DNA of 53,640 nt from Thermoanaerobaculia bacterium (GTDB lineage: Bacteria > Acidobacteriota > Thermoanaerobaculia > Multivoradales > JAHZIX01). Positions 2,504-11,697 of this stretch are shown here, piece after piece; position 1 is the stretch's first letter; each line of letters starts with the position of its first letter. The position numbers and the translations under genes were made by a program. The notes under the pieces are model-generated. The model was not told the origin of the DNA and ran no database searches. It saw nothing but the letters and a program-made list of their open reading frames with translations. The stretch covers positions 1-53,640 of the forward strand of contig JALXFE010000318.1 in assembly GCA_027069135.1 (NCBI GenBank). The letters are read 5' to 3'.

Positions 2504-4459
2504 ATGAGTGGCTTCTTCTGCATTCACCAGGCGAATAGCCGGCCGGTCAGCTCCCGATGGGTGGAGCGAATGGTCGCGGCAGGCCGCCACCGAGGCCATG
2601 GTGGGGTAGGTGTGCTCCGGGACGGTCGCCGGGCTTTTGCCCAATTCGACCGGTTCTCGAGGCCCAACGCCGCCGCGGCACCTCTGGTCGCCTTGGGCGG
2701 AGCCCTGGTCCTGGTATGTGACGCTCGCTTGGATGAGCGTGACGAGTTGCGAAACCGCCTCGCCCTTCCGACCGAGACGTCCACCGACGCCCAGCTAATC
2801 CTCGGTGCTTACCGGAAGTGGGGTCTCGATTGTCCCCAGCGGTTGCTGGGAGACTTCGCTTTCGTCCTTTGGGACCGAGACCGGAAGCGCTACCTTTGCG
2901 GCCGGGATTGTTTCGGCACCAAGCCTCTCCATTACAGCTGGACGAACGGTACCCTCTGCGTGGCTTCCGAGGCCCAGCAGATCCTCCAGCATCCGTCGGT
3001 CTCGCGCCGTCTGGACGAAGGTGCCTTGGCCCACTACCTGGTGGACGACGAATCGGATGAATCGGCCACCTTCTTCCGGGATGTCCGGAGGCTTCCGCCG
3101 GGGCACATTCTGATTCTTGAAGATGGCCGGTTGGACCTGAAGGCGTCGAATGCCCTGGTGCTTCCCAAGCCCTTGCGGTACCGCAGAGACGAAGAATACT
3201 CGGAGCACTTTCTCGAAGTCTTGGGTCACGCCGTCGAGAGCCGTTTGGAGACTTCCGGATCGAGGGTCGGGATTTTTATGAGCGGAGGGCTCGATTCGAG
3301 CTCCGTCGCGGCGCTGGCTCAAGAGCGACTTCGAGACTCCGGCTCAGGGAATCTGCTGGCTGGAACCTATGCCTTTCCTTCCCTATCGGAGTGTGACGAG
3401 AGCACCTGGAGCGAGTCGACGGCCCGAGATCTGGGGATCGATCTGCGGCCTGTGAATGTCGAAGACCATTGGCTCCTCGGGGATCCTGAGATTTTCGCTC
3501 CGGACCTCGAAACCCCGTTCCAGAGCTGGCGGGGCGCAGATACTGCGATTCTCGAGATCTTCCGCGACGAGGGTGCCGAGGTATTTCTCACCGGCCTCGG
3601 CGGCGATAACGTAACCCAAGGGAGTCACCAGGTCTTCCGTTCCCTCCTGGGAAGAGGCCGGGTTCTCGACGCCTTTCGAGGGTTGGCCTCCCATGGCCGC
3701 CGTCAAGGGATTTCAGCCGCCCGAGCGGCGATGCATTATCTGGTAGCGCCGTCCTTGCCGAAGACTCTCCATCGAACTCTCCGACGGATTCGGGGCCGAG
3801 CCTCTTCGACCAAGGTACCTCCTTGGATTCACCCGGAATGGGCCCGCCGAAATGGTATTCGGGAGGATTCGCGGTACCAAGCGAGAGAGAAGGTTTCGAA
3901 GGATCCGGCGGTGCAAGTTGGGTTTTCCCAATTGGCCACGCTGCGTTCCGTGGCTCGTTCTTGCTATTGGCTCGACCGGCTCGGAGCGCGCTTCTCCATG
4001 GAGGCACGCCACCCATTCCTGGACCGTCGGGTCGCCGACTTTGTTCTTTCGATTCCCCCGGAGCTCATCTTTGATGGTCGGGAGCGGAAGATGCTTCTGC
4101 GCAAGGCGATGGCGGGGCGGCTTCCGGAGAATGTTCGGCGGCGTCGAGGGAAGACCCGATTCGGGCCGTTCATCCATCGAAGCCTCCAAGTCGAGGCGGC
4201 TTCGGTAGTTCGGAATCTCCTTTCTGAGAGCTCCCAGCTCGTCGAGTTGGGCCTCGTCGAGGGTTCGGTCTTGGCCCAAGGTCTCGAGGCGTATTTCCGC
4301 GGAGAAGATCTCCACGGGATAGGAGAGCATCTTTGGTATCTTGTAACCCTGGAAATATGGTTGAAGTCACATTTTGGGGGAGAAGTCTCGAACCTGGAGG
4401 CCGATTCTTGCGCTGTTTTCCCCGATCCGGCGTTCCGGCAAGCGCGGTTGGCGATCTGA
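2504..4459 (+). CDS. Lasso-cyclase-like asparagine synthase homologue
   Basis: The 651-residue protein has the class B asparagine synthetase layout: an N-terminal Ntn glutaminase-like domain (about 1-220) and a C-terminal ATP-pyrophosphatase domain with the PP-loop SGGLDSS at residues 260-266. The protein starts MSGF, not MCG, so the Cys that hydrolyses glutamine is replaced by Ser. Lasso cyclases (McjC type) lack glutaminase activity in the same way. The segment ARHPFLDRR...LLRKAMAGRLPENVRRRRGKT is also typical of that family. Such enzymes adenylate an Asp or Glu side chain and close a macrolactam with the peptide N-terminus. The RiPP precursor begins 37 bases downstream. The main alternative is an EPS-associated amidotransferase of the asparagine-synthase family; the adjacent leader peptide favours the cyclase reading. 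Confidence 0.8.
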   Translation: MSGFFCIHQANSRPVSSRWVERMVAAGRHRGHGGVGVLRDGRRAFAQFDRFSRPNAAAAPLVALGGALVLVCDARLDERDELRNRLALPTETSTDAQLILGAYRKWGLDCPQRLLGDFAFVLWDRDRKRYLCGRDCFGTKPLHYSWTNGTLCVASEAQQILQHPSVSRRLDEGALAHYLVDDESDESATFFRDVRRLPPGHILILEDGRLDLKASNALVLPKPLRYRRDEEYSEHFLEVLGHAVESRLETSGSRVGIFMSGGLDSSSVAALAQERLRDSGSGNLLAGTYAFPSLSECDESTWSESTARDLGIDLRPVNVEDHWLLGDPEIFAPDLETPFQSWRGADTAILEIFRDEGAEVFLTGLGGDNVTQGSHQVFRSLLGRGRVLDAFRGLASHGRRQGISAARAAMHYLVAPSLPKTLHRTLRRIRGRASSTKVPPWIHPEWARRNGIREDSRYQAREKVSKDPAVQVGFSQLATLRSVARSCYWLDRLGARFSMEARHPFLDRRVADFVLSIPPELIFDGRERKMLLRKAMAGRLPENVRRRRGKTRFGPFIHRSLQVEAASVVRNLLSESSQLVELGLVEGSVLAQGLEAYFRGEDLHGIGEHLWYLVTLEIWLKSHFGGEVSNLEADSCAVFPDPAFRQARLAI

Positions 4460-4482
4460 TAGTATGTCAAAGAGCGACTGAT

Positions 4483-4490
4483 GGGAGAGA
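4483..4490 (+). promoter_or_regulatory. Ribosome binding site of the RiPP precursor
   Basis: GGGAGAGA lies 6 bases before the ATG at 4497. It is the main support that this short frame is translated, because the upstream cyclase gene has already stopped at 4459. Confidence 0.7.
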
Positions 4491-4496
4491 GCGACA

Positions 4497-4736
4497 ATGG
4501 AAATCAAATCGAGCCTTGACACCCCGAGCCTTGACACCCCGAGCCTTGAGACCCCGAGCCTTGAGACCCTGGGCCTTGAGACCCAACGGGGAGCTGACGG
4601 AGACCGTCAGGCCAAGAGCGAAAAACGAGCCTACTCGGCTCCCGAGCTCATCCAATGGGGAACCATCTTTGACCTGACGGGTAACATACTCAACGGAACG
4701 CAAGACGGTTTCTTCAGCGGAACCGAGCCCACCTGA
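4497..4736 (+). CDS. Lasso-type RiPP precursor peptide
   Basis: A 79-residue peptide with three parts. Residues 6-29 are a repetitive extension built of SL(D/E)TP units. Residues 46-61 match the lasso leader signature YxxPxLxxxGxxxxLT (Y46, P49, L51, G55, L60, T61), the segment normally bound by the RRE domain. The rest, from G62, is a candidate core ending GTEPT. If cleavage followed T61, G62 to D70 would give a nine-residue ring with tail GFFSGTEPT. Lasso precursors usually place the conserved Thr at -2, which would start the core at Asn63 with D70 at position 8, so the register is unsettled. The leader is longer than the roughly 25-40 residues usual for the family. The peptide sits between the cyclase and RRE genes, as expected for a precursor. 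Confidence 0.75.
   Translation: MEIKSSLDTPSLDTPSLETPSLETLGLETQRGADGDRQAKSEKRAYSAPELIQWGTIFDLTGNILNGTQDGFFSGTEPT
4512..4586 (+). repeat. Five 15-bp tandem repeats in the precursor leader
   Basis: Units at 4512, 4527, 4542, 4557 and 4572 follow AGCCTTGA(C/G)ACCCCG with small changes in the last two. Each encodes SL(D/E)TP or a close variant. Fifteen is a multiple of three, so copy-number change would lengthen the leader without shifting the frame. Confidence 0.9.
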
Positions 4737-4749
4737 CCCCTACCGGGGA

Positions 4750-5958
4750 GTGCGTTTCGCGCGGTCGATTTCAACGGGACACAAGCGAGTGGCAGAGCAA
4801 ACCTGGATCTCCCTTGTAGGTGGTCGACAGGAGATTTCTGCCTATCAGCGAAGCCTGGGGTTTGTCACGCCCGCAGAAGCCTTAGGAGCTCTGGCAGCGG
4901 GGCTCTGCAGGAGCCGTACCTGGAGAAACCTGCCTCCGGCGAAGCTTGTTCTTCGGCATGGGAGCTCTCCCGCGCTGGCCGCTTTCGGATCCTTCTCCTC
5001 TGCTCATCACCCCGTCCTTGCCGGCTGCATTTCCAATCTTCAGCATTCCCTGGCTCATCTGTTGTGGTTGGATTGGGCCGCCGTTCGAGCCGCCTGCGAG
5101 CACCTGGGAGACCGGCTCCGCGAGCACCTGGGAGACGACCTCCCGACGACCCGTTTCGAGGCGATCCCAAGAGGGGGCTTGATCGTTCTCGGTATCTTGG
5201 CGCAAGTTCTGGACCTCACACCCCAGCAGCTATCGACGGAGCCCTCAAGGGAGGGTATCCCCCAAGTCATCGTCGATGATTGCCTGTTGTCCGGCGCTCG
5301 CTTCCTGGAAGTACTGGAACGCCCCTTGACCCATCGTCTGGTCTTCGCCCACCTCGCCTCTCCCGTCGAGGCACGAGAGCGGATCGTAGCCCAGGAGGAC
5401 CGGGTCGAGGCCTGCTTGGCAGCCATCGACCTCGAGGTATCACAGGCCAGTGATCATCGGCCAGAGAGCTATGACTGGGCCCTGCGTTGCGGCCGGCAGC
5501 GGCGTGCGTGGTTGGGCCTGACGGAGCATGTGTGTTTTCCCTGGAATGAGCCGGATCGGCCGGTGTGGGATCCGGTAGCTGGGCGTTCCTTGCCGGGATG
5601 GAAAATCCTTCCGCCGGGTCTTTGTCTCAAGGGTTCCCGGAATAGGGAGGCGGTGGATCTGCAGGTCATCCACGAACCGACCGGGGCCGTTTCCCTGCCA
5701 CCGGGGGTCATGTTCTGGGACGATGGCGATTCCGTCGCTGTGGCCCGTCTCCCGAAAGGAGGCTCGATCCGTCTTCAGGGGACGGCGGCCAGCTTCTGGC
5801 GAGCTCTCCTCGGGGCGGGTTCTCTCGAAGAAGCGGTGAGCCGTCTGCGAGGAGAATACGACGTCGATAGGGAGACATGCCGGCAAGACCTGGAAGGTTG
5901 TCTCACGGCCCTGGGGCATCAGGGGTTTCTCCGCCCCGCATCGGGCGAGCCGGGATGA
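4750..5958 (+). CDS. Phosphoribosyltransferase-like domain fused to PqqD-like RRE domain
   Basis: The 402-residue product reads from GTG 4750, 13 bases after the precursor stop; GTG 4789 is an alternative start. Residues 1-130 are not recognised. A type I phosphoribosyltransferase-like core follows, with an IPRGG loop at 139-143 and a PRPP-binding-type motif VIVDDCLLSGARF at 173-185 carrying the two Asp. Residues about 318-397 look like PqqD: a GTAASFW segment, then EAVSRLRGEYDVD, a Cys/Leu-rich helix and GFLRP. This is the fold of the RiPP recognition element that binds leader peptides. Lasso clusters normally carry the RRE alone (B1) or fused to a B2 protease. No B2-like Cys/His signature is visible here. 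I infer that the RRE delivers the precursor to the PRTase-like domain; the reaction is unknown. Its stop overlaps the kinase start (ATGA). Confidence 0.75.
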   Translation: MRFARSISTGHKRVAEQTWISLVGGRQEISAYQRSLGFVTPAEALGALAAGLCRSRTWRNLPPAKLVLRHGSSPALAAFGSFSSAHHPVLAGCISNLQHSLAHLLWLDWAAVRAACEHLGDRLREHLGDDLPTTRFEAIPRGGLIVLGILAQVLDLTPQQLSTEPSREGIPQVIVDDCLLSGARFLEVLERPLTHRLVFAHLASPVEARERIVAQEDRVEACLAAIDLEVSQASDHRPESYDWALRCGRQRRAWLGLTEHVCFPWNEPDRPVWDPVAGRSLPGWKILPPGLCLKGSRNREAVDLQVIHEPTGAVSLPPGVMFWDDGDSVAVARLPKGGSIRLQGTAASFWRALLGAGSLEEAVSRLRGEYDVDRETCRQDLEGCLTALGHQGFLRPASGEPG

Positions 5959-6926
5959 CCGGGACCTACCGGGTTTTCGGGAGGACCATCGCCAGCGAGT
6001 TTCCCTTCACCTTTCATCTTCCCGCCGGGGCAGGGCCCCCGGATCTGACATTTGAGCTCGGTGAAGAGGCTCTTGGTGAAGAGGCCGGCGCCAGTTCTCC
6101 GGTCTACGAGGGTCCCCCGGCCTACGAGAGTCCGTTTCTCGACGGGGAAGGCCGCTCTGCGCTGACCGTCTTCCAACGAGATTCTGTGGAGATCTTGAAG
6201 TTTCCCGGAGTCGCTGAATTCCAGATCCACGAGGACCGGATCCTTTACCGCTCGGACCTTCCGGAACGGCGGGATCTGATCGAGATCCGTTTTCTGGGCA
6301 CCGTTCTTTCCTTCTTCCTCGAGCGTGCCGGCTTGCCGGTCCTCCATGCTTCAGTGGTCGATGTCCAAGGGGCGGCGGTGGCCTTCCTGGGGACCCACCA
6401 AGGAGGCAAGACGGGGTTGGCGGCCACTTTCTTGCAGGCGGGATATTCCCTGCTCAGCGATGATCTCGCGCCCCTGAAGCTGGGTGGAAACCGAATCATG
6501 GTCCAGCCAGGGTATCCGCAGATGAGGGTTTGGCCGGACCTGGGCCGGCACCTGGTGGGGCCCATCGATGAATTGCCGCGGGTGATCGAGACCCTCGAGA
6601 AGCGTCGAATTCGGGTCGGCAGGCCGGAAGGCTTCGGAGAGTTCTGTACCGAGCCGCGACCCTTGGCGGCGATCTATCTACCGCAAAGGAAAGATTCCTC
6701 GGTTGAAACCCACTTCGAGGCGCTAGGTCGCCGGGATGCCGTCGTAGAGTTGATGCGGATGTCGTTTTTGGCCCGTGTCGTCGATTCCCTGGGCTGGCAG
6801 TCCCATCGAATCGAAGTCCTGGCCCTCATCGCGGCGACGGTGCCCGTGCGCCGCCTGCTCTACCCCTCAGGCTTTGAGAATCTGGCGCGAGTGCGAGGGG
6901 CGATCTTGGAAGATCTCGATCGCTAG
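5955..6926 (+). CDS. HPr-kinase-like (HprK-related) peptide kinase
   Basis: A 323-residue protein starting at the ATG that overlaps the previous stop. The C-terminal half has a P-loop GTHQGGKT at residues 146-153 and the HprK-type segment LLSDDLAP at 166-172. HprK proteins phosphorylate Ser on HPr; homologues in lasso clusters such as paeninodin phosphorylate the C-terminal Ser of the precursor. Here the precursor ends in Thr79, with Thr76 and Ser74 nearby, so a tail hydroxyl is the natural substrate (inference). HprK-related kinase A systems also pair with PqqD-like proteins and NTP_transf_5 nucleotidyltransferases, and one of the latter is encoded at 9803-10981. The stop overlaps the stop of the convergent minus-strand gene by 4 bases, leaving no room for a terminator between them. 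Confidence 0.75.
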   Translation: MTGTYRVFGRTIASEFPFTFHLPAGAGPPDLTFELGEEALGEEAGASSPVYEGPPAYESPFLDGEGRSALTVFQRDSVEILKFPGVAEFQIHEDRILYRSDLPERRDLIEIRFLGTVLSFFLERAGLPVLHASVVDVQGAAVAFLGTHQGGKTGLAATFLQAGYSLLSDDLAPLKLGGNRIMVQPGYPQMRVWPDLGRHLVGPIDELPRVIETLEKRRIRVGRPEGFGEFCTEPRPLAAIYLPQRKDSSVETHFEALGRRDAVVELMRMSFLARVVDSLGWQSHRIEVLALIAATVPVRRLLYPSGFENLARVRGAILEDLDR

Positions 6927-9802: not shown

Positions 9803-10981
9803 TCATACACCGCCAAAGCGGGATTCCAGCCAACCGGCTGCACGAGACCAACCCTCCCGTTTGGCCAGATAGAAGACTCGCCGGGCCATCCAGGGCCAGG
9901 CTTCGGGGGTTTCTCTCTCGACCACGCCGGGATGGGCCCAAATTCGTCGCCAGACCGCCCTTACGCCGCTTCTGCTGGGGCGGCGGGCGAGAAGGCGGGC
10001 CAGGGTCAAGGAGCCGAGCGTGATCCGGTTCGTGCCTTGCCGGAGGGCCTTTCGGACCACCTGCCGTTCCGTGGCTCTCAGCTGGGCTCGGAGAGACGCG
10101 GCGATCTTATGGTGGGGGCCGTCGGGCCAGAGCTCGCCGGCGTGCGCCGCAGCGAGAAGAACCGGCAACTGGAGCTGCCAGCGAAGAGCCCGCCCCGCGA
10201 CCTCTTCCCCCAGCCGATCGGACGGGCAGAGGCCGGAGATTCGTTCCAGATCCCACCAGGAGAGCAGCGGCCGTGGGGGAGGATCCATCCAGGTGTGGAC
10301 CGCCGCCAGGAGGTAGGCATCCGCGGGGTGACAGCGATAGGCCGTGCTACCCAGATTTGGGTCCTCCGTCGCCGCATCGAAGAGCGTCGCCGGGTACCCC
10401 GTGGGCACCATACCCCACAGCCGGAAATGAACCTCGAGCTCGGTACCGTCCTTGTTTCGCCCTTGCCAGCAATAGCCCTCGTCTTCGAGAAAGCTCTCGA
10501 AACGCCGGCCGTGAGCGCGGGACACCCATCCGAGATCGGCTAAGACCTCCCGAGCCCTGGCTAGCGACGAGGGATCGACGAAAATATCGATATCCCCCGC
10601 CGGCCGCTCTTCCGCCGCATCATAGGCTCGGCTGCCGAGGTCGAAGCCCTTGATGGGGAGCCAGCGGATCTCTGCTTTTCCCAGGGCTTCTCCGACGGCT
10701 GAGAGGTGGTGCTCGAGGAGCATCTTGCGGCCGATGGCGAGGCGCAGCCGTCGGTTCCAGGCGTCGCTCAGGGCCAGACCGAGAGCCTTTCCCCGGAGGG
10801 CCAGAGCTGGCCCGAGACGGTGTTTCATGACGGCGGGTGCATACGAATCCGAGAGGAGCTCTTCGAGGGCCTGGGGATCCCCGGCGAGGCCCCGGACGAG
10901 ATGGCGTTCCGATTCCGCCACGAAGAAGCTCTCGATCCTGCCCCTCAGGGAGGCTGGGGAGGCCGGGGAGGTCAGGCTCAT
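9803..10981 (-). CDS. NTP_transf_5-type nucleotidyltransferase family protein
   Basis: A 392-residue protein. The ATG at 10981 overlaps the stop of the upstream methyltransferase (ATGA) and is preferred over an earlier in-frame start at 11041. The core has LPIKGFDLGSRAY followed by RPAGDIDIFVDP, the GDIDI/V nucleotidyltransferase pattern with paired acidic residues, then LEVHFRL. Proteins of this family (PF14907 type) have no settled substrate. They recur in lasso-peptide clusters and beside HprK-related kinase A and PqqD-like genes. Here the gene lies in the polysaccharide operon, under 3 kb from the RiPP cassette but on the other strand. It may serve either system. Confidence 0.75.
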   Translation of the reverse strand: MSLTSPASPASLRGRIESFFVAESERHLVRGLAGDPQALEELLSDSYAPAVMKHRLGPALALRGKALGLALSDAWNRRLRLAIGRKMLLEHHLSAVGEALGKAEIRWLPIKGFDLGSRAYDAAEERPAGDIDIFVDPSSLARAREVLADLGWVSRAHGRRFESFLEDEGYCWQGRNKDGTELEVHFRLWGMVPTGYPATLFDAATEDPNLGSTAYRCHPADAYLLAAVHTWMDPPPRPLLSWWDLERISGLCPSDRLGEEVAGRALRWQLQLPVLLAAAHAGELWPDGPHHKIAASLRAQLRATERQVVRKALRQGTNRITLGSLTLARLLARRPSRSGVRAVWRRIWAHPGVVERETPEAWPWMARRVFYLAKREGWSRAAGWLESRFGGV

Positions 10982-11697
10982 GGCTCTTGGGACGTCGGAG
11001 GGCTTGCCGCCTGAAAGATCATGAGGTTCTTCTCGAGCCACCAGACGCAGCTCCTGGCGGCGAGAGTCCCGCGCAGCCTCTCGGTGCGTTCTCCCTCAAG
11101 GCTGTAGCCCTGCTTGGCAAACTGTCGAACCCAAAAGGCCGGAACTTGCTCGTTGACATGATCGGTGCCCCCTTGACCCGGTTGAGCGGCGGAAAACGCG
11201 ATCGTCGACCCGAGGCCGCAGATATTCTCGACGATCTTTTCGGAGTGCTCCTCGGCAAGGTGTTCAGCGACCTCAAAGCAGAGGACGAGATCGAAGGCGC
11301 GGGACTTGGGTAGGGGCTCTCGCAGGTCCCGCTGACAAATCTTGGCCCGGTCAATATGGGCTCGGTCGATCGCTGCCGAGCTCCATTCGAAACCCCGGAC
11401 CTCGAGACCGCGTCGCTCCAAGGCTGCGAGGTAGACCGCTGTGCCGCAACCCACGTCCGCGACCGAAGCCGGCTGGAATTCTAAGAGGAGGCACTCCGCC
11501 ACCGCGTCCGCGGAGTCGAGAGTCATCTCTTCTTCGACGTCGAAGTATGGATCGCCGTAGATCGCGTCGGCTTCGCTGCGCCCACGCAGCCGATAGTAGG
11601 CCTTGAGGACCCCGAACCAGGCGTTGGCCATGAGATTCACCGGCCTCATCAGGCCGAGCTTTCGAACCGTGGCGAAGAATTGCTGCCGTAGGCTCAA
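10978..11697 (-). CDS. Class I SAM-dependent methyltransferase
   Basis: A 239-residue protein with the SAM-binding motif VADVGCGTAVYL and an acidic end of strand two (RGFEWS). LVLCFEVAEHL corresponds to motif II/post-I of Methyltransf_11/23 types. The substrate is unknown. Its position between a GT2 and the nucleotidyltransferase suggests O- or N-methylation of a glycan intermediate. Both ends overlap neighbours by 4 bases, indicating translational coupling. Confidence 0.8.
   Translation of the reverse strand: MSLRQQFFATVRKLGLMRPVNLMANAWFGVLKAYYRLRGRSEADAIYGDPYFDVEEEMTLDSADAVAECLLLEFQPASVADVGCGTAVYLAALERRGLEVRGFEWSSAAIDRAHIDRAKICQRDLREPLPKSRAFDLVLCFEVAEHLAEEHSEKIVENICGLGSTIAFSAAQPGQGGTDHVNEQVPAFWVRQFAKQGYSLEGERTERLRGTLAARSCVWWLEKNLMIFQAASPPTSQEP

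Follow-up and report, generated by a model that had tools for sequence, protein, structure and literature searches.

An RRE-fused phosphoribosyltransferase-like protein as a candidate tailoring enzyme in a widespread group of lasso peptide clusters

Near the start of a 53,640-nt stretch of DNA from a Thermoanaerobaculia bacterium (the window, meaning the whole stretch analysed), four genes resemble a lasso peptide cluster that lacks a B2 leader peptidase. The locus raises the question of how the leader of its precursor is removed, and of what a phosphoribosyltransferase (PRTase)-like domain fused to an RRE contributes. A sequence-only reading of the window had offered two answers: either the leader is removed by a protein encoded elsewhere, or the cassette yields something other than a classical lasso, with the PRTase-like domain taking over the protease step. 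In the most likely reading, the PRTase-RRE adds a modification to the peptide and does not stand in for the leader-cutting protease. On balance we consider it probable that the cassette belongs to a branch of lasso tailoring not yet described, where an RRE-guided PRTase would transfer phosphoribose from PRPP and act together with a kinase (K) and a nucleotidyltransferase (N).

The four ORFs of the cassette, encoding a cyclase (C), the precursor (A), the PRTase-RRE and K, all run in one direction, and profile and fold matches bear out their reading as a lasso-type cassette. The order C-A-PRTase-K is also the commonest among PRTase-RRE loci. The cassette, precursor included, is found again in a genome of the same genus (G386) and in about 50 other genomes, and it is therefore not a chance arrangement. 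Its features, with the nearby N gene, are:

2504-4459, + strand: C, McjC-type lasso macrolactam synthetase with Ser2 and no glutaminase Cys (NF033535, PF00733)
4497-4736, + strand: A, precursor gene of 79 aa with the leader motif YxxPxL(4)G(5)T
4510-4584, + strand: 15-bp tandem repeat, five copies, encoding SL[DE]TP in an N-terminal leader extension
4632-4682, + strand: conserved leader segment YSAPELIQWGTIFDLTG with Thr at -2, from comparison with related precursors
4683-4733, + strand: predicted core NILNGTQD-GFFSGTEPT, its tail with the conserved Gly-Thr, from the conservation of Asp 8/9 and Gly-Ser/Thr
4750-5958, + strand: PRTase-like domain with C-terminal PqqD/RRE; GTG start at 4750, homology from about 4801
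5152-5178, + strand: PRTase pyrophosphate loop RFEAIPRGG (PRGG in 44/44)
5266-5304, + strand: PRPP-binding motif VIVDDCLLSGARF (DD and Gly 44/44, Arg 43/44, Cys 40/44)
5536-5553, + strand: family-specific FxWxEP motif (Trp, Glu and Pro 44/44)
5641-5955, + strand: PqqD/RRE domain, nearest solved relative TbiB1 (PF05402 at 6.4e-12, TbiB1 profile, Foldseek)
5955-6926, + strand: K, HprK-like kinase, its ATG overlapping the PRTase stop codon (ATGA)
9803-11041, - strand: N, NTP_transf_5 of the PadeN/PsmN/BsfN type (PF14907 at 1.8e-24)

The window starts at base 1 of the contig, and the cassette begins 2.5 kb in, behind a repeat-rich surface-protein gene (65-2413, with SdrD-like repeats and DSDSDG tracts) that runs off the contig end. 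A similar gene in G386 is likewise cut at its contig start. On the other side, the cassette lies at the edge of a large minus-strand polysaccharide cluster (6923-40217) with genes for a sugar transferase, glycosyltransferases, a Wzy-like ligase, a deacetylase and NeuB. In G386 and in G238, a genome of the same order, the cassette likewise has sugar-transferase and DegT genes at its flanks.

C is the ATP-dependent macrolactam synthetase expected of a lasso cluster. It matches the lasso cyclase profile NF033535 at 2.9e-99, yet with a score below the family cut-off, which the other matches in both genomes miss as well, and Asn_synthase PF00733 at 7.9e-47. The sequence-only reading had pointed to a missing Cys2; residue 2 is indeed Ser, but this family of cyclases ordinarily has Ser2 (MSGICGI), so the lack of Cys2 is nothing unusual. 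Several relatives carry two lasso-type cyclase genes per cluster, adjacent at L089:3811-7639, L095:303-4411 and L101:5537-9423, and also at L076 and L113.

The precursor is predicted to be cleaved between ...YSAPELIQWGTIFDLTG and NILNGTQDGFFSGTEPT. Relatives of A adjoin about 35 of the PRTase loci, so a precursor with a lasso leader is a conserved part of the arrangement, as had been proposed. We compared 38 precursors, that of the window and 37 further ones; six more that fit the leader motif were left out, being secondary or not adjacent. A lasso precursor is expected to combine the YxxPxL leader with Thr(-2) and an Asp or Glu at core positions 7-9, and the set agrees with this: Thr(-2), counted from the leader motif, is found in 37 of the 38 precursors beside PRTase-RRE genes, and every one of the 38 has Asp as residue 8 or 9 of the core (shuffled cores: mean 4.8, maximum 13). 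Judged from its sequence, the window core has ordinary lasso macrolactam geometry, with a ring that would comprise residues 1-8 (Asn1-Asp8). This speaks against the suggestion that the product is no classical lasso. The core of G386, GTFNGTQD-GFLSGTIGS, is similar to that of the window, and its precursor lacks the SLDTP/SLETP repeat extension.

The tail of the core holds a second conserved feature. A Gly-Ser/Thr occurs there in 35 of the 38 PRTase-adjacent precursors, against 17.9 in shuffles, and still in 24/26 once similar cores are collapsed. Among lasso precursors from PRTase-less clusters, a small control set from one phylum, the motif occurs in only 5/21 (Fisher p=1.3e-7), and in 4/13 of those from clusters having K (p=3.9e-5). 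The motif could alternatively be a feature of threading or of recognition by K. We rejected a C-terminal Ser/Thr as a universal kinase site, because the last residue of many cores is Gly, Pro, Arg or Asn. Halomonas clusters contain an extra precursor with a normal leader (L080:13632-13805, L085:13513-13812, L119:11137-11358) that lacks the usual setting of the ring Asp, yet has the Gly-Ser motif (e.g. DPGSTVPDITPV); it is possibly a non-lasso substrate of the same tailoring enzymes.

The third gene is, as modelled, a type-I PRTase domain fused to an RRE. Its C-terminal domain, assigned to PqqD by profile, matches TbiB1 at 1.9e-14 by profile and with a TMt of 0.83-0.86 in Foldseek, and is the RRE (B1) component of the cassette, present in the form of a PRTase fusion. 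The middle part falls below the Pfam PRTase cut-off (PF00156, Pribosyltran: 11.4 bits against 26.3, E 0.2). An AlphaFold2 model built from 44 relatives (pLDDT 91.3, pTM 0.89) nevertheless places it in the type-I PRTase fold: the top Foldseek matches of this part are the purine PRTase 1vdm, HGPRT and XGPRT, at a moderate TMt of 0.4-0.6, and those of the C-terminal part are to the lasso RRE protein TbiB1. The pyrophosphate loop and the DD PRPP loop are both in place, the latter with the consensus DDC(A/L)LSGxR across 44 sequences from many phyla. The fusion that had been read from the letters is thus supported by profile for one half and by AlphaFold2 and Foldseek for the other. On the complete chromosome of Halomonas socia CKY01, a frameshift splits the gene into two overlapping ORFs (L119:9914-11124), which may reflect a sequencing error, a pseudogene or a programmed event.

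K matches its family profile weakly (TIGR04352, 2.5e-5), and its assignment as an HprK-like kinase is confirmed by an HprK/PEPCK fold and by invariant His131, Gly151-Lys152 and Asp169-Asp170. Lasso peptide kinases such as PadeK and BsfK are described as having this same set of His, Lys and Asp-Asp (PMC10368454, PMC9266682). In the pseudomycoidin system PsmK phosphorylates a Ser and PsmN extends the phosphorylated Ser, and BsfK phosphorylates its own precursor, aided by an RRE protein (PMC9266682, PMC10368454). The N gene of the window lies 3 kb from the cassette, at the edge of the polysaccharide cluster, and is a probable partner of the cassette.

As the sequence-only reading had noted, none of the genes in the 53,640-nt window encodes a B2. 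In the whole assembly, the sole match to Transglut_core3/NF033537 is a 511-aa transglutaminase-like protein on another contig (C617, L001), which we rejected as the missing B2 because it is a generic protein below the NF033537 cut-off. A separate B1 was not found in this assembly either, the only PqqD domain there being that of the PRTase fusion. Loss and an assembly gap fit this absence alike, the cassette being so close to the contig end. In G386, a B1-B2 pair stands by itself on a different contig, and the 19 kb examined there contain no cyclase; the search of the window's own genome for this region gave no match to the B2-adjacent phosphatase and one of only 34% to the sigma-factor neighbour. 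A leader-removing protein encoded elsewhere, as had been suggested, would fit this same-genus genome. In G386 the B1-B2 pair is directly followed by a HAD/acid-phosphatase-like gene (L053:7870-9982), whose product might remove phosphate from a phosphorylated or phosphoribosylated peptide.

In three genomes of the same order (G238, G427 and G439), B1, B2, C, PRTase-RRE and K share one cluster, and a separate B1 and B2 stand beside the PRTase-RRE in many further loci. Because B2 and PRTase-RRE coexist, we discarded the replacement of B2 by the PRTase; the PRTase is most likely an accessory enzyme, and the absence of B2 here is probably local or due to the assembly. At the genome level, a B2 above the cut-off is present in 39 of 52 PRTase-RRE genomes (31/43, plus 8/9 order members, the sole exception being the window's genome), against 58/297 genomes in the phylum at large. 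The remaining 13/52, the window's genome included, have no B2 above the cut-off, though most of the records are draft assemblies or MAGs. On the complete Halomonas socia chromosome, the distance between B2 and the PRTase gene is about 26 kb.

Besides G386 and other members of the order, 51 PRTase-RRE loci turned up when GTDB contigs were scanned. Their record labels cover Acidobacteriota, Gammaproteobacteria (Halomonas, Billgrantia, Litchfieldella), Cyanobacteria, Gemmatimonadota, Spirochaetes, Verrucomicrobia, Chloroflexota, Rhodothermia, Deinococcota and Actinomycetota, where single phylum labels may be binning errors because many records are MAGs. Among the 20 loci flanked by 6 kb or more on both sides, C is present in 20/20, K in 19/20, N (counted within 10 kb) in 12/20, a separate B1 in 10/20 and B2 in 8/20.

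We propose the following pathway. The leader would be cut behind Thr(-2)-x(-1), a step that in most relatives would fall to a B1/B2 pair, whether close by or at another locus, and C would then form the macrolactam by linking the first core residue to Asp8 (Asp9 in others). The PRTase-RRE would dock on the YxxPxL leader through its own RRE, and by analogy with PsmK/PsmN and BsfK its PRTase domain may move 5-phosphoribose from PRPP onto the core. The most likely target would be the hydroxyl of the tail Gly-Ser/Thr, or a group that K has added there. Butirosin biosynthesis (BtrL) offers a precedent for O-phosphoribosylation of a hydroxyl. K would phosphorylate the precursor and N extend the phosphate, as described for PsmK/PsmN. 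The order of these steps is provisional, and the window's genome would use a B1/B2 encoded in trans or in unassembled DNA. A more tentative extension, plausible but somewhat doubtful, is a widespread lasso class phosphoribosylated on the conserved tail Gly-Ser/Thr, possibly as a handle for polysaccharide attachment; the handle is considered because of the neighbourhood of the cassette.

Other roles for the PRTase-like domain can be weighed against this pathway. The domain may no longer transfer anything and instead sense a nucleotide or PRPP, gating delivery of the precursor as a regulatory RRE. Such a role would suit the change of the canonical TGxT to (S/T)GxR and the weak match to catalytic families, and regulatory type-I PRTase homologues exist in PyrR and PurR. 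However, 44 sequences from many phyla all keep the pyrophosphate loop and the two PRPP-binding Asp, and the peptide motif co-occurs with the PRTase-RRE, so we think a sensor unlikely. The large polysaccharide/NeuB cluster that borders the cassette, together with an N near 12/20 loci, could instead mean that the PRTase makes a small ribosylated donor for N or for the polysaccharide genes, the peptide itself never being phosphoribosylated. We hold this to be highly improbable, since the RRE fusion implies action on a leader-bearing precursor and 8/20 well-flanked loci have no N within 10 kb.

It is also conceivable that the PRTase-RRE took the place of B1/B2 in this lineage, with the leader kept, removed by new chemistry or a housekeeping peptidase, and no classical lasso formed. 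An assembly without B2, in which the fusion holds the sole PqqD domain, is what this would predict, and pseudomycoidin is reported, according to the title of a work cited in PMC9266682, to form without leader and leader peptidase. The same protein family nonetheless stands beside B1 and B2 in many loci, G386, whose cassette is the same and whose core is similar, keeps a B1-B2 pair elsewhere, the geometry of the core is that of an ordinary lasso, the PRTase fold has no peptidase machinery and the window begins at a contig end. Replacement of B1/B2 is accordingly quite improbable in our view, and tailoring of the peptide by an RRE-guided PRTase remains our preferred reading.

We know of no described phosphoribosylation of any RiPP, and phosphoribosylation of these peptides, if true, would be a new RiPP modification. 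A literature search with most subscription journals outside its range returned only incidental matches for a PRTase in a lasso or RiPP context. The PRTase has its own RRE and an intact PRPP site and co-occurs with a peptide motif across about 50 genomes of many phyla, among them culturable Halomonadaceae, which makes the proposed modification directly testable. A false lead is also removed, the cassette being no evidence for a protease-free lasso pathway.

We rate the cassette as a variant of kinase/nucleotidyltransferase lasso clusters with an added PRTase-RRE. Like it, the clusters for paeninodin (PadeK/N), pseudomycoidin (PsmK/N) and Bradymonas bsf (BsfK/N) contain A, C and an NTP_transf_5 N, and they share the HprK-like K with His-Lys-Asp-Asp, Thr(-2) and the Asp at 8/9. 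The split B1/B2 is common to them and to the relatives of the cassette; the cassette itself adds the PRTase-RRE, and no B1/B2 was found beside it here. Its tail motif is an internal Gly-Ser/Thr, whereas PadeA has a strict C-terminal Ser and BsfA the ring Ser3. The C-terminal ~100 residues of the fusion share the RRE fold of the lasso B1 proteins TbiB1 and TfuB1, but the RRE is here fused to a PRTase, often alongside a separate B1. With type-I PRTases such as the archaeal purine PRTase 1vdm, HGPRT and XGPRT, the fusion shares the fold, the PRGG loop and the DD PRPP motif; it differs from them in the RRE fusion, the FxWxEP motif, a score below the Pfam threshold and a presumed peptide acceptor.
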